Source: Nitratifractor salsuginis DSM 16511
Lineage (GTDB): Bacteria; Campylobacterota; Campylobacteria; Campylobacterales; Sulfurovaceae
Reading direction: 5' to 3'
NCBI RefSeq assembly: GCF_000186245.1
Contig: NC_014935.1
Span: 1,612,001 to 1,676,000, forward strand
Length of the DNA: 64,000 nucleotides
Part shown: piece by piece, positions 5,309 through 59,360 of the stretch
How the letters are laid out: each line of letters starts with the position of its first letter
How positions within the stretch are numbered: position 1 is the stretch's first letter
The notes under the pieces: model-generated
The model's database searches: none
The model's input: the letters and a program-made list of their open reading frames with translations, nothing else
What the model was told of the DNA's origin: nothing
Position numbers and translations under genes: made by a program

Positions 5309-5701
5309 TTAACTTCGTTCTAGCCATCGCTCGAGGATAATCTGAGCCGCCAGGGAATCGATCCGGCCATCGCGTTTCTGGCGAATCGCCCCTTGCATCC
5401 GTTCTTTGGCCTCTTCGGAGCTTCCGGCTTCATCCTGATAATGAACCTCCATCTGCGGAGGAAGTTCGAGTAAACTGACGAAATGGCGGATCCGCCGCTC
5501 CATCTCCTCTTCGCTGCTTCCTCCCCTTGGTAAACCGACCACTAGCAGATCGACTTTCCACTCCCTCAGAAAATCGCTCAACTCCTTCGCCGCCTGTTTC
5601 CGCCCTCGGCGCTCGATGGCCCGTTGGGGCAGTACGATCCGCCCATCGGGGCTGATGGCCACGCCGATACGCTTGAGCCCCACATCGACTGCCGCAATCA
5701 C
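5309..5701 (-). CDS. ruvX: Holliday junction resolvase-like RuvX/YqgF
   Basis: 130 residues, the normal family length. The RNase H-like fold motifs are visible: DVGLKRIGVA near the N-terminus with the first catalytic Asp, VGLPRGGS in the middle and YQDEAGSS near residue 90. YqgF proteins act in 16S pre-rRNA 5' end processing and were first predicted as Holliday junction nucleases. The start is a GTG that overlaps the stop of the upstream phosphoribosyltransferase gene (GTGA), so the two are co-translated. Confidence 0.87.
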   Translation of the reverse strand: MIAAVDVGLKRIGVAISPDGRIVLPQRAIERRGRKQAAKELSDFLREWKVDLLVVGLPRGGSSEEEMERRIRHFVSLLELPPQMEVHYQDEAGSSEEAKERMQGAIRQKRDGRIDSLAAQIILERWLERS

Positions 5702-6339
5702 TCCCCGGCCTCCGGATGGCGTCTCAATGTTGCAATCACCTCTTCGTCGTCGAGCTGGTGGAAATCCTCGTAGAAACGGCCTACGGCGATGAGATTGTCC
5801 GATGCGTGCAGCACGACCACCCGGTCGGCCGTCTGCTCCAGCAGAGGCAGGATCTCCGAAGGGGCCACCGGCACAGCGACGATCACTTCGGCAGCTCCCG
5901 CCTGTTTAAGCGCCTGCACCGCCAAAAACATCGACGATCCCGTCGCGATCCCGTCATCGACCAGGATCACCCGCTTGCCGGAAAAATCCGGGACTTTACG
6001 TCCATAGAGGGCGCGTTTTTCCGCCATTTGACTCAGCTTCTCCTTCGCCCGGCGCCGTAGATACTCTTCGCTGACTCCCAGGGCTTTGACCGCTTCGCTG
6101 TTGACCTGCATCAGCCCGGTTTCGCTCACGGCTCCGATCCCCGCCTCCTCATTGTAGGGGCTGGGGATCTTCTTGACGAAAAAGATATCCAACGGCAGAT
6201 GCAAAGCCTCGGCGATGGGCTCCGCTACTGCCACCCCGCCTCTGGGCAGGGCCACCACTACCGTATCGGGAGCTTCCCGGTAAGCCTCCAGGCGCTCCGC
6301 CAGCAAGCGTCCCGCCTCTTCCCTCGTTTTGAAAATCAT
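5698..6339 (-). CDS. Phosphoribosyltransferase-family protein
   Basis: 213 residues from the ATG at 6339. The PRPP-binding loop VILVDDGIATGSS lies near residue 120 and an ALPRGGVAVAEPIAE segment, typical of ComF/DUF-type PRTase-fold proteins, near residue 35. Proteins of this kind are annotated generically as phosphoribosyltransferases; no specific base substrate can be assigned. The ATG is preceded by a GGAGGA ribosome site that lies inside the end of thiS, one base after the thiS stop. The order is thiS - PRTase - ruvX. Confidence 0.75.
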   Translation of the reverse strand: MIFKTREEAGRLLAERLEAYREAPDTVVVALPRGGVAVAEPIAEALHLPLDIFFVKKIPSPYNEEAGIGAVSETGLMQVNSEAVKALGVSEEYLRRRAKEKLSQMAEKRALYGRKVPDFSGKRVILVDDGIATGSSMFLAVQALKQAGAAEVIVAVPVAPSEILPLLEQTADRVVVLHASDNLIAVGRFYEDFHQLDDEEVIATLRRHPEAGE

Positions 6340-6340
6340 C

Positions 6341-6541
6341 TCATCCTCCTCCGACAAAATGCAGCAGTTCCACCCGGTCATCCTCTTGGAGCCGATGCCG
6401 GGGCCACCGGTCCTTTTTGACGATCTCCATATTGACCGCCGCCGCCATCACTTTTTTGCCGATCCCCAATTCCTTTATCAACGCTTCGAGCGTTGTTCCC
6501 GATTCGATCTCCCGTCGTTCACCGTTCACGGTCACTGTCAT
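6341..6541 (-). CDS. thiS: ThiS sulfur-carrier protein
   Basis: 66 residues with a ubiquitin-like (beta-grasp) pattern: MTVTVNGE at the start, a TTLEALIKEL helix, DRVELLHFVGGG at the end. The C-terminal double glycine is the site that is adenylated and thiocarboxylated to carry sulfur to the thiazole ring of thiamine. The protein ends in three glycines, within family variation. thiC is encoded elsewhere in this window (47280-48647) and not in the same operon. Confidence 0.82.
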   Translation of the reverse strand: MTVTVNGERREIESGTTLEALIKELGIGKKVMAAAVNMEIVKKDRWPRHRLQEDDRVELLHFVGGG

Positions 6542-6694
6542 TGATCCGCCTCTCTTCCCACGTTTTTTTATCCATAAAGTTTACGTTTTTTTTCGACTTT
6601 TTGCAATGCTTTCGATCCCTCCGTTTTCATTTCAAAGATCAAGCATACTCTGGGTAGAATAGCACAGATTTATCATACAGGAGTGGGTAGGCTT

Positions 6695-7204
6695 ATGAGA
6701 AAAAAAGTGAAGATCGCCATCTTGGGCATCGGAGGGATTCTACTCTTTAGCGGATGCGCGCCGAGGCTCCCCGCTCCTCCGGCTCTGACCGATCAAAACC
6801 GAAGTGTCCATCGCGTAATGTGGGAAGATACTTCCGGCGTAGAGAAGAACTATTCACTCAAACCCGAGCCCTACTCCATCGACTCGGGCCAGAAGGACCC
6901 GGAGCTCCTCGGGCCCCAAAGCACTCTCAAAAAGAGACTTCCCGGCGACGAAGAGAGCCTTGCCGGCAGTGAGATGGTCGAAACCACTCAGGCAACGACT
7001 CCGCAAAGCGCTTCCGCCGAGGAAGAGACTTTCCTCGCCAGGGATGAGCAAAAAACACCTGCAACTTCCCGGCCTGCTATGACCCGCAGCCGCTGCATCG
7101 AACTCATCGGTCAAAGCGACTTTGACAAATATACCCGTCAATTCGGCAGCGAAGAGGCCGCGCTGCGCAAATGCATCATCCTCGAGAGGGTTCAGAAGAG
7201 ATAG
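6695..7204 (+). CDS. Small predicted lipoprotein of unknown function
   Basis: 169 residues. MRKKVKIAILGIGGILLFSGC is a lipoprotein signal with the cysteine at about residue 21. The mature part is low in hydrophobic content and rich in Pro, Ser, Thr and Glu, with a more ordered C-terminus holding two cysteines (SRCIEL and RKCIIL, about 40 residues from the end). The ATG at 6695 follows a CAGGAG site at a good distance; a GTG four codons upstream overlaps that site and is less likely. I do not recognise the family. Confidence 0.6.
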   Translation: MRKKVKIAILGIGGILLFSGCAPRLPAPPALTDQNRSVHRVMWEDTSGVEKNYSLKPEPYSIDSGQKDPELLGPQSTLKKRLPGDEESLAGSEMVETTQATTPQSASAEEETFLARDEQKTPATSRPAMTRSRCIELIGQSDFDKYTRQFGSEEAALRKCIILERVQKR

Positions 7205-7240
7205 GCTCCGTCGGCTGATCCACTCGCTTCCCCTCTCAAT

Positions 7241-7257
7241 GGGCATAGCCCCTTTTT
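7241..7257 (+). terminator. Weak candidate terminator after the lipoprotein gene
   Basis: GGGC-ATA-GCCC followed by CTTTTT, 36 bases after the stop of the lipoprotein gene. The stem is only four G:C pairs, so the call is weak. Confidence 0.3.
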
Positions 7258-7259
7258 AA

Positions 7260-7267
7260 AATCTTTA
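7260..7267. repeat. Left copy of the target site duplication
   Basis: AATCTTTA, directly outside the left inverted repeat; the matching copy is at 8314-8321. Confidence 0.85.
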
Positions 7268-8313
7268 GACTTAAAGCGGGTTTTCGGGTTGCTATTTCAT
7301 TGCTTTTTCTAGGAAATCAGTGATGAGTTTCTTCTTCATAGAGTCTCCAATACCCCGATGGATTTTCAATAAAGCTTTCATAGGAGAGAAGAGTCCACCA
7401 TCCAAAGTATTGGTTGTATTGGCTATGCCAAGATGAGGATGGGTTTTATACGTGAAGAGATAAGGAAGATTGCGTTCAAGACTTCGATAGGCCGAGCGGA
7501 GTCGATCATGGGTGTAATGCCATCCACGTGGAGAATCGTCAGGGGTTTTCTCTTCATAGAAATCTTTGTGCCGTTGGAGCCAGGCTTCCAGCATATAGCG
7601 GAAACGGCAGGGGGTTGTCTGTCCAAGATAGGAAGCGATACGCTTGAGATCCCTAGAGGCTTGATAGGTAGGTCTGCGCGTCAGATAACGAGTGAGAATG
7701 GCTTGTTGATGGAAATGGCACATTTGAACCGGAAGGTCGGCAAAGAGCCCAAACAATCCCCGTCGGCCATCGACGGTGACGGCCTGGATGATAAAGCCCT
7801 GATCCAGAAGGCTTTGCCGAAGCATCGCATATTCATTGAGCGTCTCAGTCTGAATGAAACGATACGCTACCAGTTGGCCACTCAGGATATCTTTAGCTAC
7901 AAGAACACCAAAGCCCTCTCCCCGTTTTCCGAAGAATGTCGCATCGATAACCAAAGTGACCGGTCTGGGATGTGGTGAAGTCTTTGGCGGTTCATAGCTA
8001 TGAATCTGACGTTGAATCCACTCCCGATCCTTATGATAGGTCCGGGATAAGGCTTTGAGGGTTTGGTGCTCATAGAAGTAGGCAGTAAAGAGTCGTTTTC
8101 TGAGGCGGGAGGGACGTCTACGAGAAGAGAAGCTCTGCCGGCAACTTTGGCAAAAATAGCGCTGAATTCCTGCTCTTTTACCATTCTTTTTCGTCGCTTT
8201 TGAACCACAGATAGGGCACTTTTTTACAAGCCATCTGTAAAAAAGTCCTTTTTAGGCACCATATTACCGAAGGTTTAAAGGATTTTTAGCAACCCGAAAA
8301 ACCGCTTTAGCTC
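7268..8313. mobile_element. IS256-type insertion sequence with 8-bp target duplication
   Basis: A 1046-bp element. Its ends are 26-bp inverted repeats (7268-7293 and 8288-8313) that match at 23 of 26 positions, both starting GA and ending TTCGGGTTGCT inward. The octamer AATCTTTA is present directly outside both ends (7260-7267 and 8314-8321), a target site duplication of the length made by IS256-family elements. It holds one transposase gene. The right duplication includes the stop codon of the neighbouring midA-like gene, so insertion occurred at the end of that gene without breaking it. Confidence 0.88.
7292..8262 (-). pseudogene. Zn-ribbon IS256-variant transposase, interrupted by a frame shift near the start
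   Basis: The main frame encodes an N-terminal zinc ribbon (CPICGSK...YFCQSC) and then a MULE/DDE-type catalytic region with VIDATFF and VTVDGRRG for two acidic residues, a MCHFHQ motif and a C-terminal Glu/Lys-rich end, about 320 residues in all. This matches the zinc-binding variant of the IS256 family. The zinc-ribbon frame has no ATG, GTG or TTG between the preceding in-frame stop and the ribbon. A good ATG at 8262 is in another frame and meets a stop after 12 codons. One extra base in the six-base homopolymer at 8239-8244 would join the ATG to the ribbon frame. The copy is therefore either inactivated by a one-base loss or expressed by slippage at that run. Confidence 0.72.
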
Positions 8314-8321
8314 AATCTTTA
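8314..8321. repeat. Right copy of the target site duplication
   Basis: AATCTTTA, directly outside the right inverted repeat; it includes the TAA stop (minus strand) of the midA-like gene. Confidence 0.85.
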
Positions 8322-9449
8322 CCTCTTGGAAAATTCCACGACTTTGAATCGATCCCCCATCACCGTTGGAGCGATCAGCGTTTTGATCCGGTCGGCCTGG
8401 CGCAGATAGTCGGCCTGAGCGGCGATCTTGGCATACTCTTCCAGGATGTCGACAAGGCCGTAACGCACCAGAGCCCTGGCCTGGGTCTCGTAGGCGTCGC
8501 ATCGCATCCCCGCCCCCTCGAAAGCTTCGATCACGTGGCCGAAGTTCACATCGTATGTGATGTCGCTCTCCTGGTACGCTTGGGCCAGGTTCAACTCTTC
8601 GTCAAAGAGGGGAAAGGTCTCGTGCTTTCGATAGACCCGGATGGAGAAGTCATTGCGCACATACTTCTCTCCGTAGTCGAAGCTGACAAACTCCAGCGCC
8701 TCCGCCGCCTCGGCCACCCGCCGGGCAAAGGATTCGTAGCCGACGGCGATCTCCCCTTTGACGAGGCGGTGGCGCTCGGCAAAATCTTTGAGCTTATCCT
8801 CTGCATCGACCCAGCTGATGTGGTGATTTTCCACCACAGCCTGTTCTCCCTCTTTGTAGAGTTCGCAGGGAAAGGCGTCGAAGATCTCGTTGGAGACAAA
8901 GAGAGCGTAGGGGACCCGTACCTCATCCAGGGAAGCAAACTGCTCCAGTGCCACCCCGCTGCCGAAGCGCTCGGCGAAATACTCCCGCTGGATCCTGCGT
9001 ACATCCTCCTGCCGCTCCACGATCCCAAAGCGCATCGTCTCCAGCAAAGAGGGGTCACAGCTGTAGAGCCACTGGATCATATCGGCCAGCAGATAACCCC
9101 GATGGGCCCCGATCTCGATAAGCCAGGCATCCCGAGGGATCCGCCCCTCTTGAATCCCTTTCCAGAAGTGATTGGCAATGGCCGCACCGAAAAAGGCGCT
9201 GGTACTTACCGCGGTATAGAAATCCCCACCCTTTCCGATATCCCGAAAAGTCTTGTAGTAGCCCCCCTCGCCGTAGAGCCATTCATTCATATAGGTGCTG
9301 AAGGGAACCGGGCCGGAGGGAGATTTTGGATTTTGGATTTTGGATTTTGGATTGTTTTTTGAGTCGTTGGTCGTTGGTCGTTGGTCGTTGGAGATTTGTT
9401 GCTTGCTTTGCTGATCGGTTACTCCGTTATTCAGTTCCTCACTCCTCAC
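8319..9449 (-). CDS. MidA/NDUFAF7-family SAM-dependent methyltransferase
   Basis: 376 residues as drawn. From about residue 48 the protein follows the DUF185/MidA family: PVPFSTYMNEWLYGEGGYY, GGDFYTAVSTSAFFG, an SAM-binding IEIGAHRGYL and VSNEIFDAFPCELY. Family members methylate protein arginine (complex I assembly in mitochondria); the bacterial substrate is unknown. The first ~45 residues are encoded by three different short tandem repeats (9323-9353, 9363-9391, 9437-9464), and no ATG, GTG or TTG lies between those repeats and the conserved domain, so translation must begin in the repeats. The GTG at 9449 is itself part of a heptamer repeat unit. The 3' end borders the IS256-type insertion. 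Confidence 0.8.
   Translation of the reverse strand: MRSEELNNGVTDQQSKQQISNDQRPTTNDSKNNPKSKIQNPKSPSGPVPFSTYMNEWLYGEGGYYKTFRDIGKGGDFYTAVSTSAFFGAAIANHFWKGIQEGRIPRDAWLIEIGAHRGYLLADMIQWLYSCDPSLLETMRFGIVERQEDVRRIQREYFAERFGSGVALEQFASLDEVRVPYALFVSNEIFDAFPCELYKEGEQAVVENHHISWVDAEDKLKDFAERHRLVKGEIAVGYESFARRVAEAAEALEFVSFDYGEKYVRNDFSIRVYRKHETFPLFDEELNLAQAYQESDITYDVNFGHVIEAFEGAGMRCDAYETQARALVRYGLVDILEEYAKIAAQADYLRQADRIKTLIAPTVMGDRFKVVEFSKR
9323..9353. repeat. Tandem heptamer ATTTTGG, four copies plus ATT
   Basis: Exactly four perfect units plus ATT (31 bp), inside the N-terminal coding part of the midA-like gene. The identical 31-bp sequence occurs at 31326-31356 and, reverse-complemented, at 31751-31781. 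Confidence 0.95.
9363..9391. repeat. Tandem heptamer GTCGTTG, four copies
   Basis: Four perfect 7-bp units plus one G, ten bases from the ATTTTGG array, also in the midA-like N-terminal coding region. Confidence 0.95.
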
Positions 9450-52639: not shown

Positions 52640-53215
52640 GTGAATGTCTCCACCGGCTAATAGCCGGTGGCTTCAGATTACGGCTGAAAGCCGGTCATTC
52701 AGCCTGAAGGCCGTCGGTTGATCAGACAACTCGGAACTCATCATCAAGCTCTGGTGGTTGTTGGTTCTTGATATATTCCATCCAGACTTCATCGGTCACA
52801 TTTCCACTCGTTGCAACCCAGTATCCTCTCGCCCACAAATGCTGCCCCCAATACCGCTTCTTCAGCATCCGAAATTCACTCATCAATTTATGCGAACTCT
52901 TCCCTTTCAAATATTGCACTGCCTTTGATACGGACATATTTGGCGGTATCCCTATCAACAAATGTACATGATCCCGATTGATGGATCCTGCATAAATCAC
53001 CATCTCCCGACTCATCGCAATCTCACGTAACAAATCTCGGCATCGGTACCCCACATCCCCTTTTAAGACGGGATAACGGTATTTTGTCGTCCACACGAGA
53101 TGGTATTTACAGTCCCATACTGTATGCCCACCATTTCTATACTCTTGCATCTTTCAAGCATACCATATCCCGGCCGCCTAAAGGCGTGGGGTTTACGGAT
53201 CCCCGATGGGGGACT
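52640..53215. mobile_element. IS200-type element (tnpA only)
   Basis: One gene for a Y1 transposase, bounded by subterminal hairpins: CCACCGGCTA/TAGCCGGTGG at 52648-52670 on one side and CCGCC-TAAA-GGCG plus CCCC-GAT-GGGG on the other (about 53170-53210). IS200/IS605 elements have such hairpins and no target duplication, so the exact ends are approximate. Confidence 0.75.
52722..53150 (-). CDS. IS200/IS605-family TnpA transposase
   Basis: 142 residues, full length. HUH motif NRDHVHLLI (about 59-67) and the catalytic tyrosine helix VTDEVWMEYIKNQ near the end; KYHLVWTTKYRYPVL and KKRYWGQHLWARGYW are family constants. Single-strand transposase. No tnpB is associated. Looks intact. Confidence 0.92.
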   Translation of the reverse strand: MQEYRNGGHTVWDCKYHLVWTTKYRYPVLKGDVGYRCRDLLREIAMSREMVIYAGSINRDHVHLLIGIPPNMSVSKAVQYLKGKSSHKLMSEFRMLKKRYWGQHLWARGYWVATSGNVTDEVWMEYIKNQQPPELDDEFRVV

Positions 53216-53335
53216 CTAAAAATTCACACCCCATAGCCGCCCAGATCAGCTCAACTCTGTACTCTCCCCCAAGCAACTCTTGCATAAACTTTGGAAATGT
53301 TTCCCTTGATCTTATTCTGTGTGTTAGATTTGTAT

Positions 53336-53364
53336 TTGAATATAATTAAAATTCAGGATATAAT
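53336..53364 (+). promoter_or_regulatory. Candidate sigma70-type promoter of the DUF2089-LemA-M16 operon
   Basis: TTGAAT (53336-53341), a 17-bp spacer, and TATAAT (53359-53364), 27 bases from the first ATG. The -10 is one half of an 18-bp dyad TATAATT-TTTT-AATTATA (53359-53376), which would suit an autoregulatory operator for the HTH protein encoded first. Confidence 0.55.
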
Positions 53365-53390
53365 TTTTTAATTATATTAAAAGGCTATAG

Positions 53391-53750
53391 ATGAAAGAGT
53401 GCCCCATCTGCCATGAACCGCTCCAGGCGGTGAAGCTTCGATGCGATGCATGCAAGACCGCATACGAAGGGGAATTCATCCTTCCCAGGCTTGCTCGCCT
53501 CGATGCCCAATTCCAACGTTTGGCCGAGACCCTCATCGAGTATGGCGGCAATCTCAAAGAGATGAGCGAAGCCCTCGATATCAGCTATCCCACCCTCAAA
53601 AAGAGGCTCAATGCCCTCTCCCTGGCCCTCAAGAAACTCAAAGAGCATGACGAACAGACGATCACAGAGATCCTCGAAGCCATCGAAAGCGGCACAATCT
53701 CGGCCAAAGAGGGAATCCGACGTATCAAGGAGATCAACGGTGAACTATGA
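53391..53750 (+). CDS. DUF2089-family zinc-ribbon/HTH protein
   Basis: 119 residues. Zinc ribbon CPIC...CDAC (4-21), then a helical region with LKEMSEALDISYPTLKKRLNAL, a helix-turn-helix, and a C-terminal SHOCT-like segment (AIESGTISAKEGIRRIKE). Probably a small transcription regulator of the operon it leads. Its end overlaps the next start by 11 bp. Confidence 0.72.
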   Translation: MKECPICHEPLQAVKLRCDACKTAYEGEFILPRLARLDAQFQRLAETLIEYGGNLKEMSEALDISYPTLKKRLNALSLALKKLKEHDEQTITEILEAIESGTISAKEGIRRIKEINGEL

Positions 53751-54408
53751 AGAACGAATCCGGCAAATGCTGGCAAAAGGGATCCTCGACGAAAAAGAGG
53801 CCATCGAGCTGCGCGGTTCCCTCCAAAGCCGCCCCGCCGATGATCTCCCCCCGAGATCCCACACCATGGAGTGGATCGGGGTGTTTCTGTTGGAGAGTAT
53901 GATCCTGCTCTTTTGGCTCGTCACAGGCACGGCCTCCGCTCCCCAGGCTGTCGAAGATGTCCGTCAAAACCTCAATGCCCCGGTGCAAAGCGGCATAGCG
54001 GGCTACGCCCTTTTTGGAATCGTCCTGCTGCTGTGGACTTGTGTGGCTTACGTGGTACTTTATCTGCTTGCCAGGCTCTCCTATGCCGCTCTGGGTAAAA
54101 AAGCGGCGCGACTGGGGCAACTGGATGCCGAGGAGGAGCATCTGCTTTTGATGCAGGAGGCCCTGGAGAAAAAAGCCGGCAGATCCAAGCAGGAGGAGCC
54201 TTCCGCCGATCGCCGTGAATTTGTCCTTCGCCTCGACCCCGACGAAAATCCCGTCGATTCCTGGCGATACGAGCTGGAGACGGCTCTACGGCAATGTCGA
54301 AACGAGCGGGCCGAAACCCGAAGCGAATATCTCCGGCTGCGCCGGGGGCTTGTCGGTGCCCTGGCCAGGCTGATCGGGCCATTACCAAGCAACAAGGAGG
54401 AAGAATGA
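53740..54408 (+). CDS. Membrane protein of unknown function (LemA operon)
   Basis: 222 residues from the GTG at 53740, which follows AAGGAG. Two hydrophobic helices (about 45-68 and 92-117) and a long charged C-terminal half with possible coiled coil. The N-terminal ~30 residues (RIRQMLAKGILDEKEAIEL) resemble a SHOCT-type motif. No family recognised. The stop overlaps the lemA-like ATG. Confidence 0.6.
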   Translation: MNYEERIRQMLAKGILDEKEAIELRGSLQSRPADDLPPRSHTMEWIGVFLLESMILLFWLVTGTASAPQAVEDVRQNLNAPVQSGIAGYALFGIVLLLWTCVAYVVLYLLARLSYAALGKKAARLGQLDAEEEHLLLMQEALEKKAGRSKQEEPSADRREFVLRLDPDENPVDSWRYELETALRQCRNERAETRSEYLRLRRGLVGALARLIGPLPSNKEEE

Positions 54409-55028
54409 AAGAGAATGAAATCACGCGGAGCAAACGGGGCGTAGGAGCCTACCTCCTCATCGTGCTGGGGCTGCTGGCGGCGGGGATGCTGATCTGGTTC
54501 ATCCTGAGCTACAACACCCTGGTGGCCAAAGAAGAGGCGGTCAAAACCGCCTGGTCGCAAGTAGAGAGCAATCTCCAGCGCAAGGTCGATCTGCTGCCCA
54601 ACCTGGTCAAAACCGTCAAAGCCTACGCCAAACACGAACGCGACCTCTACACGAAGATCGCCGCACTGCGCGCCCAGGCCGCTTCGGTGCTCAAAGAGAG
54701 TTCCAGCGGCCCCGACGAAACGCGGCTCGCCAAACTCGACACCCTGCAAAAAGCGCTGCGGAAACAGACCGCCCGGCTCTTCGCCGTGGCGGAAAATTAC
54801 CCCGTTCTGCGCTCTTCGGAGCAGTTTTTGCAGTTGCAATCCCAGATCGAGGGAGCCGAGAACCGCATCAACATCACCCGTATGCAGTTCAACGAAGCGG
54901 TCGGGGATTTCAACCGCTATATGCGCACCTTTCCCGCCAGCATCGTGGCGGGCTTCGCCCACTTCCGGCGCAAAGCCTATTTCAAAGCCGCACCCGGCTC
55001 AGAAAAACCCCTGGAGCTGAATCTATGA
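54405..55028 (+). CDS. LemA-family protein
   Basis: 207 residues. One N-terminal TM (about 16-38), then the LemA helical domain: YNTLVAKEEAVKTAWSQVESNLQRKVDLLPNLV is the signature, and NRINITRMQFNEAVGDFNRY. LemA proteins are of unknown function, often next to TPM-domain or peptidase genes. The stop overlaps the next ATG (ATGA). Confidence 0.86.
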   Translation: MKENEITRSKRGVGAYLLIVLGLLAAGMLIWFILSYNTLVAKEEAVKTAWSQVESNLQRKVDLLPNLVKTVKAYAKHERDLYTKIAALRAQAASVLKESSSGPDETRLAKLDTLQKALRKQTARLFAVAENYPVLRSSEQFLQLQSQIEGAENRINITRMQFNEAVGDFNRYMRTFPASIVAGFAHFRRKAYFKAAPGSEKPLELNL

Positions 55029-56464
55029 AAACCCTGGTCAAAACCCTGATCTTCCTGACGATCTCCACCCTCTTCATCGGCTGCCAAAATCAGGCGGAGA
55101 ACTCCCGGAGCGTGGCCTCACAGGCTCCGGCCGCACAGATCATCTACGACGATGCCGCCGTACTGCTGGACAATGACAGATTCGTCCGGGAATTCACCCG
55201 ATACAACCGCTGGCTCAAAAAGCGTTATGACATCGATTTCAGAGTCGTAACCACCATCGACGACGGCGATATCGACCTTTACGCCAACCGCCGCTTCAAC
55301 ACACTGATGAAAGAGAGCCGCAGCCACAGCGGTAAAGCCCTTCTCCTGGTGATCAACCCCGTTCAGGACAAGGTGCGCCTGGAGGTTTCGGAAGCGCTGG
55401 AGCCCATCTTCACCGACGCTTTTGTTAGCTACATCGAGCGCAAGGGCTTCATCCCCTATTTCCGCGACCAATCCATCGCCGAAGGGGTCTTTATGGCAAT
55501 GGAGCTGATCAAAGACCGGCTCAACGACGCAGCGGCCGGCAAAGAGTTTCTCCCGCCCATGAAGACCAAATCGATCGGAGGCGGGGCCAAAAACAAAGCC
55601 CACATCGGACAAAAAGACCCCCACGCCAAAGAGGGGGCCCAAGTGACGGTCAAGGCAGCCGAACCCCCCAAAGCCGTCCTGAAACGCTACCTCAACGAGG
55701 TACTCAAAAAGCACAACAAAAACCCCGACCTCGACATCTACACCGAGGCAAGCAGGAAGTTTTTTCACCATTGGACCGTCACCGAGGTCAACCAGAACAA
55801 CGAAGTGCGCTTCCTCTCCCCCTGTATCGACCGGATGGAGACCCTCTACAACCCCGATCGAACTCATGCGGTGCTTGCCGTACTCCCCTACGACAAAAAC
55901 CGCAAATGCTCTCCCTACTTTTTCAGGAAAGAAGAGGGCAAATGGAGGCTCGACATCGCCACGATGGCCCAGGTGCTGCATTTCAATACCCAGATGCAGT
56001 GGCATTTCGACACGGCCAAACGCCTTCAGGGGGAAGGGATCTATTACGCTTACGCTTTCGACGGCTACGGAATAGGCCGTAACGGCTACCTCTATACCCC
56101 CGATAAACCGAAGCCCAAAGATACGCGATGGGGCTTCTGGGTTCGGGGCTACTACCACCCCGGGGACCGCCGGGAGGATGTCCGGGCCTGGATCCGTTAC
56201 GTCTGGCCGGGCTCCCCGGCACAGGTGCGCCTCGGCCTGGAGAGGGGAGACAAGATCTACGCCGTCGGGGAAGGTCCCACACGCATCGAAAATGCGACCC
56301 ACCGGCAATTTATGGACTATATGAAAAACATCCCCAGCGGAGAAATCGCCACCGTCGTCGTGGAGCACTACTACCTCAACGGCAAAGAGACTTACGACTT
56401 CGACGCAGTACTCAAGCCTGATGTGCAGTTCAAATATGAAACCAAAAGGGGGATCGCACCGTGA
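55025..56464 (+). CDS. TPM-domain lipoprotein with C-terminal PDZ-like domain
   Basis: 479 residues. Lipobox LFIGC at about residue 20. A TPM (YgcG) domain (about 35-165) with KRYDIDFRVVT, SHSGKALLLVINPVQDKVRLEVSEALE. A central NTF2-like/unknown region, and a PDZ-like end with WPGSPAQVRLGLERGDKIYAVG. TPM proteins regularly pair with LemA. A start-stop overlap couples it to the M16 gene. Confidence 0.72.
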   Translation: MKTLVKTLIFLTISTLFIGCQNQAENSRSVASQAPAAQIIYDDAAVLLDNDRFVREFTRYNRWLKKRYDIDFRVVTTIDDGDIDLYANRRFNTLMKESRSHSGKALLLVINPVQDKVRLEVSEALEPIFTDAFVSYIERKGFIPYFRDQSIAEGVFMAMELIKDRLNDAAAGKEFLPPMKTKSIGGGAKNKAHIGQKDPHAKEGAQVTVKAAEPPKAVLKRYLNEVLKKHNKNPDLDIYTEASRKFFHHWTVTEVNQNNEVRFLSPCIDRMETLYNPDRTHAVLAVLPYDKNRKCSPYFFRKEEGKWRLDIATMAQVLHFNTQMQWHFDTAKRLQGEGIYYAYAFDGYGIGRNGYLYTPDKPKPKDTRWGFWVRGYYHPGDRREDVRAWIRYVWPGSPAQVRLGLERGDKIYAVGEGPTRIENATHRQFMDYMKNIPSGEIATVVVEHYYLNGKETYDFDAVLKPDVQFKYETKRGIAP

Positions 56465-58512
56465 GCGGAACCGAAAAATTAATGCGCTTTTTCAAAAGAT
56501 CGACCATCGCATTGCTGCTTGCCACCTATGGCATAACAGCGATGGCCGCTTCGACTACATCGGAGAACAACCAAAGCTCCCATACCCACCCCGACCCGTT
56601 CAAAAGGGTGATCTACTATCGACTCCCCAACGGGATGCAGGTCTATCTGCTTCCCGACCCCAAGGCATCAAAAGTCCAGGCCGAAGTCGATGTCGGAGTG
56701 GGATACGACAATGAAAACGAAAAGAATTACGGCCTCTCCCACCTGGTGGAGCATATGGTCTTCCGCGACCGGCGCATCCCCCATCACGACTATCTCGACT
56801 ACATCAAAGACCAGGGCGGCACCGGGGTCAATGCAAGCACCAAACGTTACGAGACCGACTACTACGCCACCATCGCGCCCCCCAAGGCCGAGTGGCTCAT
56901 TCAAAGCTTCGCGCAGATGCTGCTGGATAAGAACCTCACCCAGGAGGATCTGAACGTCGAGAAAAAAGCCCTCCAGATCGAGATCGGTGAACCTCACTTG
57001 ATCTATCAGATTTTCTATAAGATCGGCCGTCTCATCCAGACCATCACTCCCCCATCGGAGGATCTCTACCGTGACTGGTTTTCGCTCCCCAAACAAAAAG
57101 AACTCCCCTCCCCCTACATCGCCCAGATCAACAACCGACGCTTTACCCTCGGCGATGTTCTCAGGCGCTACCGTACCTACTACTACCCGGCCAATATGAA
57201 ACTTTTCGTCGCCGGGAACTTCGACCCCGAGCGTATGCGGCAAACCATCCGGGAGAGTTTCGGCAAAACTAAACGCCGCGGGACCCTCAGCGTCAGCGAA
57301 CCCCACCCCCAACCGCGGCTGCCGAAGAAACCCTACGCCGCCTATAATCTGGGCTCCCCCAAGAGCTACGCCAGTGTCGCGACGATGTTTGTGATGAAGG
57401 ATTACCGTCGCTATCTGATCCTCGATGCCTATACCGATATGCTGGCCGAGCGACTCCAGCAGCAACTGCGCAACCGCGCGGGGAAGACCTATACCGTCAG
57501 CGCCACCTCCTTCGGCCGGGGATATGCCCAGGTGATGGGGATTTCCCTCGACGGCCCCCACCGCAGTTTCGACGCCAACATCCACGCCGCCGAAGCGATG
57601 ATCTCCGCCGACCGCCAAAAGATGCCGCACCCCCTCATCGAAAAGACGCTCTGGAGGTATGAAAAAGAGAATTTCACTGACATCGAGCACGACACCGATA
57701 CACTGATGAGTATGCTGGGAGCCATGCAATACCTGCGGGAAGATTTCAATATCACCGACAAAACCCCCTACGATCTCTTCAAGTCGATCACCCCCGAGAC
57801 CTTCGCCCGAACGGTTTCGGAAGCTTTCGCTCCCCGGCACCGCTATCTGAAGGTCTGGAGGGATTACGCCTTCTTCCCCATGGAGCTTGTGGCTATGAGC
57901 CTGCTGACTTTAATTCTTTTTATCCTGACCATAGTCTTCTACCCCTCATGGCTGATGAGGATCAAGGGAATACGCTTCACCCAACGGGACGTCAGACTGA
58001 GTCGCCGTCTCAGCAGCCGTTTCACCGGGACGCTCATTTTCATCGTCACCTACCTCCTCGCCGCGCTGGCCGAAGGGTGGGTCATCTACCTGGTGGGCAA
58101 ATGGATCTTTCACGATCCCTACTGGGTCGAACGCATCGACGCGCCCCTGGGGCATCTCATATGGTTCCTGGAGTTCTTCCTCTTTTTGGCCCTCTATGTG
58201 GGTCTTTACTACCTCCTCTGGCGCTATTACGCCAAACTCTTTGTCACGGATGACAGGATGATCGCCCTGGGCAACCGCGTACTCGCCATCGACAAGGACC
58301 AGATCGCCGCCATCGACGTCGTCCCCGCCCGGGAACGAAAATGGCGACGAACCCTGGGTGCGATGCTCCGCTTCTACAAACCGGTGGTCAAACTCACCCT
58401 CAAAGACGGAAAAATCTACTATCTACGCAACTCCAATGCCCAGGAGCTCAAAGAGGACCTGGAGCGATGGATGCAAGAGCAAAGAGGGAAAAGGGAAGAA
58501 ACCACCCAATGA
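56461..58512 (+). CDS. M16-family zinc peptidase fused to membrane and PH-like domains
   Basis: 683 residues starting at GTG (GTGA overlap). Signal/anchor at 12-30. M16 (insulinase) domain with HLVEH (94-98), the HxxEH zinc site, and the downstream glutamate region NVEKKALQIEIGE; the second M16 half follows to about residue 465. Then several TM helices (about 475-600) and a C-terminal ~80-residue PH-like domain (LFVTDDRMIALGNRVLAIDKDQIAAIDVV). The fused membrane/PH portion is unusual for M16 peptidases. It is the last gene of the five-gene operon. Confidence 0.78.
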   Translation: MSGTEKLMRFFKRSTIALLLATYGITAMAASTTSENNQSSHTHPDPFKRVIYYRLPNGMQVYLLPDPKASKVQAEVDVGVGYDNENEKNYGLSHLVEHMVFRDRRIPHHDYLDYIKDQGGTGVNASTKRYETDYYATIAPPKAEWLIQSFAQMLLDKNLTQEDLNVEKKALQIEIGEPHLIYQIFYKIGRLIQTITPPSEDLYRDWFSLPKQKELPSPYIAQINNRRFTLGDVLRRYRTYYYPANMKLFVAGNFDPERMRQTIRESFGKTKRRGTLSVSEPHPQPRLPKKPYAAYNLGSPKSYASVATMFVMKDYRRYLILDAYTDMLAERLQQQLRNRAGKTYTVSATSFGRGYAQVMGISLDGPHRSFDANIHAAEAMISADRQKMPHPLIEKTLWRYEKENFTDIEHDTDTLMSMLGAMQYLREDFNITDKTPYDLFKSITPETFARTVSEAFAPRHRYLKVWRDYAFFPMELVAMSLLTLILFILTIVFYPSWLMRIKGIRFTQRDVRLSRRLSSRFTGTLIFIVTYLLAALAEGWVIYLVGKWIFHDPYWVERIDAPLGHLIWFLEFFLFLALYVGLYYLLWRYYAKLFVTDDRMIALGNRVLAIDKDQIAAIDVVPARERKWRRTLGAMLRFYKPVVKLTLKDGKIYYLRNSNAQELKEDLERWMQEQRGKREETTQ

Positions 58513-58539: not shown

Positions 58540-58968
58540 ATGCCTGCTAATAACATTGTTTTGTCAGACTATTACAGCGACAAACTGTATCTCTACGACT
58601 TGGATAAAAATGTCTTACTCCTGCTGGAAAACAGTATCAAGCATGACAAGTTCACTGGCTGGGTGGCTTTTGAAAAATGTGGGTTGTTTAAAAAGAAAAT
58701 CGTCACAACAGGATTGTTTTATCTAAATGGAGAAGTTTTTTTCATCTGGGATAAAAAATACTATAGAATGAATAATGATATTGCAATTAAAATAAATGAT
58801 TTCTACTTTTTGATAAGATTAGTAAAGATAAAAATCAATAATACAGTAGATTATCTTTGTAAACAGTGGTCAAAAGATATCGATCCGTTTGAAATGGATG
58901 ATTTCTTTTACTTTTTTGAATATTCTGCAAAACATAATTTTGAGAATATTAAATCTTTAAGAAGATGA
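58540..58968 (+). CDS. AT-rich orphan protein
   Basis: 142 residues, a good GGAGGAG site. No known family, rich in Ile, Lys, Asn, Phe, Tyr. The composition drops sharply from that of the M16 gene 27 bp upstream. Its start codon follows the end of the operon. Position before a lipoprotein gene and an Rhs core fragment suggests an Rhs immunity-type gene; this is an inference. Confidence 0.55.
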   Translation: MPANNIVLSDYYSDKLYLYDLDKNVLLLLENSIKHDKFTGWVAFEKCGLFKKKIVTTGLFYLNGEVFFIWDKKYYRMNNDIAIKINDFYFLIRLVKIKINNTVDYLCKQWSKDIDPFEMDDFFYFFEYSAKHNFENIKSLRR

Positions 58969-59360
58969 CCTATACAAAGTTGAAAATTATTAAAATGATA
59001 TTCTTGATATCAGTTTTCTTTTTATTTGGATGCAACAAGAAAGATACTTGTGTATATAATATTGAATCAAAAAATGATATGATCTTATTCTACAAAAAAT
59101 TTAATATTTATGACTTGAAAACTAAGGTTAGACAAAATGACAATTATATAAAAAAATTTTTATGCTTAAAAGGTTTAAGTGAAAAAATCCCTGGCATTGA
59201 TGATGAAAATATTATATTGAAGCAGGGGTACATATGTGTTGGTATTAATGATGCAAATGCGACAAAGGAAAATTCCACTAAAGTTCTGAAACTTTATGAA
59301 TATGAAAAAAAATATAATTTGCTTCTACTTTCCAGTTTAAAGACGGGGGATTCTTATTAA
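58965..59360 (+). CDS. AT-rich predicted lipoprotein
   Basis: 131 residues. Signal peptide and lipobox LFGC at about residue 22, then a small acidic/basic mature domain. No family recognised. It overlaps the previous gene (ATGA). Same foreign-looking composition. Confidence 0.55.
   Translation: MTYTKLKIIKMIFLISVFFLFGCNKKDTCVYNIESKNDMILFYKKFNIYDLKTKVRQNDNYIKKFLCLKGLSEKIPGIDDENIILKQGYICVGINDANATKENSTKVLKLYEYEKKYNLLLLSSLKTGDSY

Follow-up and report, generated by a model that had tools for sequence, protein, structure and literature searches.

A DUF2089-headed LemA and TPM/PDZ operon of Nitratifractor salsuginis with an optional M16 membrane protease: a possible envelope-maintenance module

Here, we analyzed a five-gene operon of Nitratifractor salsuginis DSM 16511, a member of the sulfur-oxidizing family Sulfurovaceae (Campylobacterota), that lies within a 64,000-nucleotide stretch of its genome (NC_014935.1, positions 1,612,001 to 1,676,000; hereafter the window). 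The operon encodes a DUF2089 protein, a small membrane protein (gene 2), a LemA protein, a lipoprotein with TPM and PDZ domains, and an M16 peptidase fused to transmembrane (TM) helices. Tentatively, and at somewhat less than even probability, we take it to be a DUF2089-autoregulated envelope-maintenance module in which LemA would provide a scaffold for the TPM/PDZ lipoprotein and the M16 peptidase would serve as an optional effector. Proteins of the LemA and TPM families occur widely, frequently as a pair. Here, they are tied to a dedicated regulator with a recognizable operator, to a PDZ domain and, in some lineages, to a protease. The role of LemA-TPM thereby becomes testable, since the operator leads to a regulator, the PDZ domain to a C-terminal peptide ligand and the M16 site to a substrate. 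No paper on the five-gene set was found among open-licence full texts; the set is a variant of known LemA-TPM and DUF2089 modules.

The original prediction, made from the window's sequence alone, described five genes overlapping by stop and start codons under one good promoter with an AT-rich dyad, and both points were borne out. All five open reading frames (ORFs) are present on the forward strand (Table 1), with consecutive overlaps of 11, 4, 4, and 4 nt by their coordinates, and a sigma-70-type promoter accompanied by a 17-bp dyad precedes them. Shine-Dalgarno-like purine runs occur upstream of genes 2, 3, and 5, each within the preceding gene, and the overlap between genes 4 and 5 implies translational coupling. 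The source genome, a single 2.1-Mb contig, holds two LemA genes, a second, ordinary M16 gene and one DUF2089 match, which is gene 1.

Gene 1 is the probable autoregulator. It scored above cut-off for both PF22747 (46 bits) and PF09862 (51.8 bits), which correspond to a zinc ribbon and a helix-turn-helix (HTH), and four Cys residues are invariant (alignment A8). Its tail resembles SHOCT below threshold (PF22746, 22.4 bits vs. a cut-off of 27). DUF2089 proteins have been described as having a zinc ribbon-HTH-SHOCT-like layout and as occurring in membrane-stress operons (Ravi et al., 2024; PMC11237479). The DUF2089 genes of PSP/Lia/Toastrack membrane-stress operons encode the same regulator layout and likewise head an operon of membrane proteins; unlike in those operons, none of the five window proteins has a Toastrack, LiaI-LiaF, PspC, or PspA domain by Pfam.

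The promoter region contains a conserved double operator, which was absent from the original prediction. The upstream site, O1, shares its left half with the -35 box and is a near-copy of the O2 palindrome that follows the -10 box. Three dyad matches were observed vs. 0.06 expected from shuffles, two of the three being one palindrome read on both strands. Ten promoters of Campylobacterota DUF2089 genes have a common layout, with an ATTAAAA-type half-site between the -35 and -10 boxes and TTTTAAw-n3-ATTAAAA directly after the -10 box. In all ten, the right half of O1 and the right half of O2 are 31 bp apart, and the start of the -10 block lies 32-38 nt before the start codon. The operator score was reached by none of 300 shuffles in each promoter, the motif having been built from the same sequences that were later scored. 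With up to two mismatches allowed, a 24-bp O2-type pattern, TAYAATTTTTTAAWWWWATTWAAA, has a single occurrence in the 2.1-Mb genome, and five relatives contain, beyond the operon copies, one other distinct site (G495 contig 49, 1 mismatch). The independent evidence for an operator is therefore the constant spacing and the near-absence of further genomic sites, and the single site in this genome suggests a dedicated autoregulated unit. The layout is most simply read as two sites on the same face of the DNA that are both occupied by a dedicated regulator, most likely the DUF2089 protein as a putative repressor. Alphaproteobacterial promoters gave no match to the Campylobacterota pattern.

Gene 2 encodes a helical SHOCT-like head (residues 1-28), a TM helix (46-64), a loop, a second TM helix (91-109) and a charged C-terminus. 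Its most conserved motif, VEDVxxxLN, is in the loop, where L78 and N79 are invariant, and the flanking charges (positive-inside) are predicted to place both head and tail in the cytoplasm. The gene 2 protein of the window matched no Pfam family and no LemA profile. An orthologue from another Campylobacterota family (L058) scored exactly at the LemA cut-off (26.2 vs. 26.2 bits), which suggests a LemA-type ancestor for gene 2; the C-terminus appears to have diverged past detection as LemA in Sulfurovaceae. We did not retain the proposal that this C-terminus is a LemA domain in Sulfurovaceae, since the profile comparison was negative and the distant L058 orthologue was alone in supporting it. The relation of gene 2 to LemA, which the original prediction did not contain, is also seen in gene fusions. 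In Alphaproteobacteria (L086, L087, and L088), a head, a TM helix, a loop, a second TM helix and a LemA domain form one chain of 306-309 aa, and this union of the N-terminal half of gene 2 with LemA in one polypeptide is a concrete clue to a membrane scaffold. At three further loci (L075, L080, and L083), a gene-2-like head is joined straight to LemA. Gene 3 itself encodes an N-terminal TM helix plus a LemA domain (PF04011, 159.8 bits, E = 5.2e-47). A link to magnetosomes through MamQ was dismissed as mere LemA kinship (NCBIfam MamQ, 88 vs. a cut-off of 250). The second LemA gene of the genome (G000, 760657-761115) belongs to a LemA-DUF2207 pair (L037, 4770-7218, reverse strand), which is a different LemA module.

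The product of gene 4 has a lipobox whose Cys20 is invariant among five homologues, and its structure was modeled from 22 sequences with a mean predicted local distance difference test (pLDDT) score of 83 and a low-confidence linker after the TPM domain. TPM domains have been argued to be chaperone-like and to assemble membrane-linked complexes (PMC11237479), and phosphatase activity of TPM has been judged unlikely (PMC12419801). The middle domain with its Cys pair, another feature that had gone unremarked, gave no convincing Pfam family or PDB sequence match; a guess from sequence pattern that it is NTF2-like was abandoned, as no such match supports it. The PDZ-like end that had been proposed for the protein was upheld by the model, whose C-terminal fold matches PDZ domains (Z about 10, with 82-90 residues aligned to those of DegQ, HtrA, and Prc), with the profile score just under cut-off (22.5 vs. 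23.2 bits). In an Alphaproteobacterial relative (L088), PDZ_2 scored above cut-off (39.2 vs. 27 bits). The domain ends in GIAP, which is conserved in close homologues. In LemA-TPM gene pairs, the LemA gene is directly followed by the TPM gene, as here, with both families above their Pfam cut-offs. Unlike in those pairs, the TPM protein of the window is a lipoprotein with a Cys-pair domain and a PDZ domain and without a TM tail, and genes for DUF2089 and a two-TM LemA-related protein precede the pair. The C-terminal PDZ fold of this predicted periplasmic lipoprotein is common to PDZ-equipped periplasmic proteases (DegQ/DegS/HtrA, Prc, and CtpB); unlike them, gene 4 encodes no serine protease domain, and the sole protease is the optional M16 neighbor.

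Gene 5 had been predicted to encode an M16 zinc peptidase fused to several TM helices and a PH-like domain, and the first two parts of this description hold. Following a signal-peptide-like N-terminus, both M16 domains scored above Pfam cut-off (PF00675 and PF05193), the zinc site is complete, with an HxxEH motif and a downstream Glu, and three TM helices come after the M16 half. That the last ~85 residues form a PH-like domain was not confirmed: the window protein gave no Pfam PH match and no PDB sequence match, its model is of low confidence in this domain, and one orthologue matched bPH_9 at E = 0.097. Built from six sequences, the model as a whole is weak, with a pLDDT of 62, but its M16 half is clear (Z 23.3 to 7v4y, TTHA1264/1265, and 22.9 to Helicobacter pylori 5euf). 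Half-size bacterial M16 peptidases, comprising these two and Sphingomonas M16B (3ami), have the same half fold of N- and C-domains (Z ~22-23), and HxxEH...E and the C-domain residues R337/Y344 are common to them and gene 5. Unlike these peptidases, gene 5 adds the signal-peptide-like N-terminus, the three C-terminal TM helices and an extra domain, and no second M16 subunit is encoded within the operon.

A contig search with the TPM protein gave 25 loci, mostly from Sulfurovum-type metagenome-assembled genomes (MAGs), the others being Sulfurimonas-labelled, Alphaproteobacterial, or from Marinobacter; for most relatives, the sequence is a MAG contig with an end close to the DUF2089-LemA-TPM unit. 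The full order DUF2089-gene 2-LemA-TPM was found in L068, L069, L070, L071, L076, L079, and L085, and the order DUF2089-LemA-TPM in L075, L080, and L083 and in the Alphaproteobacteria (L086-L088). In both phyla, the DUF2089 gene mostly overlaps the next gene by 11 nt, and at a few loci by 14 nt. Plain LemA-TPM pairs made up L074, L077, L082, L084, and L091. One of the four-gene units (L071), at 55-60% identity (29% for gene 2), is on a contig labelled Desulfobulbaceae, which is either misbinned or received the unit by transfer. In Marinobacter (L090 and L092, ~5700-8880), genes that by eye look like those of a response regulator and a histidine kinase directly precede a relative of the TPM gene, a hint that a two-component system controls TPM at these loci.

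Among 175 Sulfurovaceae genomes, the TPM protein was present in 16, the M16 protein with three TM helices (M16-3TM) in 17, and both in eight, a co-occurrence with a Fisher p of 1.1e-5 that is uncorrected for phylogeny and treats related genomes as independent. In six of the eight genomes with both, the M16 and TPM genes are on one contig in the same orientation. The M16 gene follows at 27 nt in L081 and at 57 nt in L073, is separated from the TPM gene by one gene of 161-176 aa in L085 and L070 and by two small genes in L068, and in the window overlaps it. In G537, the two are on different contigs with other neighbors; in G515, the contig breaks, and the genes past the M16 fragment resemble those past M16 in L085. 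The original prediction had named two checks, conservation of the gene order beyond this genome and the zinc-ligand Glu of M16, and the outcome was mixed. The Glu is present and the four-gene core is conserved, with M16 alongside in six Sulfurovaceae, but the strict five-gene overlapping order was found only in this genome among those examined. An initial impression that M16 is unlinked elsewhere, drawn from a first sample in which M16 and TPM genomes were disjoint, was overturned by the contig search and the full family survey. A single-sequence contig scan with the M16 protein gave no match, and M16-3TM was absent from all six genomes of Alphaproteobacteria and Marinobacter represented at the loci. 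The M16 gene is thus a facultative partner of the unit and not an obligate subunit. In L069 (9668-12064), a large M50 (site-2 protease) membrane protein with an HELGH motif is encoded after the four-gene unit in the place of M16, at the contig end.

Taken as an envelope-maintenance module, the operon could work as follows. The DUF2089 protein would bind its own promoter at O1, over the -35 box, and at O2, after the -10 box, and repress it. Its release may be linked to the membrane, with the SHOCT-like tail of DUF2089 contacting the helical head of gene 2. The two-TM gene 2 protein probably works with LemA, as the fusions in Alphaproteobacteria and in L075, L080, and L083 indicate, and the LemA pair would act as a membrane scaffold for the lipoprotein. 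Within the lipoprotein, both folds are predicted with good confidence; the TPM domain may help to assemble or maintain a membrane complex, and the PDZ domain may bind the C-termini of periplasmic proteins. The membrane-anchored M16 peptidase, its zinc site on the periplasmic side, would degrade what the PDZ protein releases or presents, be it peptides or unfolded segments, a step that we infer from linkage, co-occurrence and catalytic residues. In line with this scheme, the genes listed as up-regulated in an sppA mutant of Flavobacterium columnare include those for TPM, LemA, and M16 (PMC13236525). The original prediction had suggested an envelope quality-control or peptide-processing complex; this is consistent with the TPM and PDZ domains, the M16 zinc site and DUF2089, with the M16 protein now an accessory rather than an obligate part. 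Between its two halves, the literature on TPM and DUF2089, the Flavobacterium expression data, the HtrA/Prc-type PDZ domain and the intact M16 site favor envelope maintenance over peptide maturation. A more specific version, to which we give rather little credence, is a one-component envelope-stress circuit in which the zinc-ribbon HTH repressor would be held or released by contact with the head of the membrane LemA complex. The state of LemA/TPM-PDZ in the envelope would thus be read directly into transcription of its own operon, with M16 as the effector in some lineages.

Several observations weigh against the module as proposed. M16 is absent from half of the TPM genomes in Sulfurovaceae and nine Sulfurovaceae, as well as other Campylobacterota, have it without TPM; it is hence not essential to the unit. 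The operator motif was scored on the sequences from which it was built, so that finding it at the operon does not count as independent evidence. The SHOCT assignment of the gene 2 head is a pattern resemblance, with no SHOCT family among the Pfam matches listed. Finally, the topologies conflict: by TM count, the two-TM fusion in L086-L088 puts the LemA domain inside, whereas in a single-TM LemA with a head the LemA domain would be outside if the head is cytoplasmic.

An alternative is that M16 is a functionally unrelated neighbor with its own history at a syntenic site, merely abutting the four-gene unit. In G558 (L149), M16 is at the apparent chromosomal site of L085/L070 and the unit is missing. 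M16 is present without TPM in nine Sulfurovaceae in all; lone M16-3TM genes follow glmM-lspA in two genomes from a different family, and one adjoins tmk. Moreover, the M16 tree requires three changes of the label "with operon", a number compatible with either a single origin followed by losses or repeated joining. Against this alternative, M16 and TPM co-occur in Sulfurovaceae above chance by the uncorrected test, they are linked in at least three chromosomal surroundings (the window, L068, and L070/L085), and the overlap in the window implies that M16 is translationally coupled with gene 4. We consider it doubtful. At the G558 locus (L149, 9005-11407, reverse strand), an 800-aa beta-helix/alpha-beta hydrolase protein abuts M16-3TM in place of the DUF2089-LemA-TPM unit.

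It is conceivable, but in our estimation unlikely, that the operon instead serves respiratory or photosystem-like assembly, with TPM as an assembly factor or subunit of a membrane complex such as a cytochrome bc-oxidase and M16 as a structural or processing subunit, like core proteins 1/2 (mitochondrial processing peptidase, MPP) of mitochondrial complex III. We keep this reading because mycobacterial bcc:aa3 supercomplexes include relatives of the TPM fold among their subunits (structure matches 8hcr and 6hwh) and because a Campylobacter TPM-like protein has been linked to the oxidase and the bc complex (PMC8267372). Structure matches also include Psb32/TLP18.3 of photosystem II, and the M16 half resembles the complex III core proteins, although this match extends to the whole M16 superfamily and not to the core proteins in particular. 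None of the copies of the unit was seen to contain a gene for a respiratory complex. In addition, the unit is rare and patchy (16/175), whereas bc1 and cbb3 oxidase are a general feature of the Sulfurovaceae group. Maturation of, or immunity to, a secreted peptide or bacteriocin processed by M16 and the PDZ lipoprotein is quite improbable: some M16 pairs mature peptides, an AlbEF homologue is among the structure matches of gene 5, and three papers on leaderless bacteriocins mention DUF2089, but LemA and TPM occur without M16. Moreover, neither the operon nor its surroundings, here or in relatives, showed a recognizable gene for a precursor peptide, a maturase or an exporter, in a search that was not exhaustive for small ORFs.

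Table 1. Promoter elements, genes and protein domains of the operon, with positions in the window
Feature	Position	Strand	Basis or remark
Promoter TTGAAT-N17-TATAAT	53336-53364	+	Best sigma-70-type match in scanned region, 10/12
Operator-like site O1, TTTGAATATAATTAAAA, overlapping the -35 box	53335-53351	+	1 mismatch vs. O2 palindrome, minus strand
Operator-like palindrome O2, TTTTAAT-TAT-ATTAAAA, just past the -10 box	53366-53382	+	
Gene 1, DUF2089 protein, 119 aa	53391-53750	+	ATG start; Pfam
Gene 2, two-TM LemA-related partner, 222 aa	53740-54408	+	GTG start; TM helices, fusion, L058 orthologue
Gene 3, LemA protein, 207 aa, single TM (17-35)	54405-55028	+	ATG start; PF04011
Gene 4, lipoprotein with TPM, Cys-pair middle domain and PDZ, 479 aa	55025-56464	+	ATG start
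TPM domain of gene 4, residues 40-171	55142-55537	+	PF04536, 67.6 bits vs. cut-off 22.1, E = 1.3e-18; Z 14.9 to 7tbr
Middle alpha+beta domain of gene 4, residues ~215-330	55667-56014	+	pLDDT mostly >=90; conserved C267/C295
PDZ domain of gene 4, residues 366-479	56120-56461	+	Z ~9-10 to DegQ, HtrA, Prc, DegS PDZ domains
Gene 5, M16 half, 3 TM helices and C-terminal domain, 683 aa	56461-58512	+	GTG start
HxxEH zinc motif HLVEH of gene 5, residues 94-98	56740-56754	+	H94, E97, H98 invariant (alignments A2, A5)
Third zinc ligand E174 of gene 5, 76 residues past H98	56980-56982	+	Invariant (A2, A5)
Three TM helices of gene 5 (476-494, 521-542, 566-584)	57886-58212	+	After M16 half
C-terminal domain of gene 5 (~588-675)	58222-58485	+	Strand-rich, then helix; PH-like proposed, unproven

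Carriage of these genes on plasmids was considered and discarded, since PLSDB gave no match to the TPM protein and its matches to the M16 protein were partial, below 60% identity, with none covering 80% of the query. In the window, the operon is directly followed (58540-59360, forward strand) by two AT-rich ORFs of foreign appearance, at 27% GC vs. 53% for the window, neither with a Pfam family and one with a lipoprotein-like start. Directly upstream of the promoter region lies an IS200-type transposase gene (52722-53150, reverse strand; PF01797, E = 2e-42).

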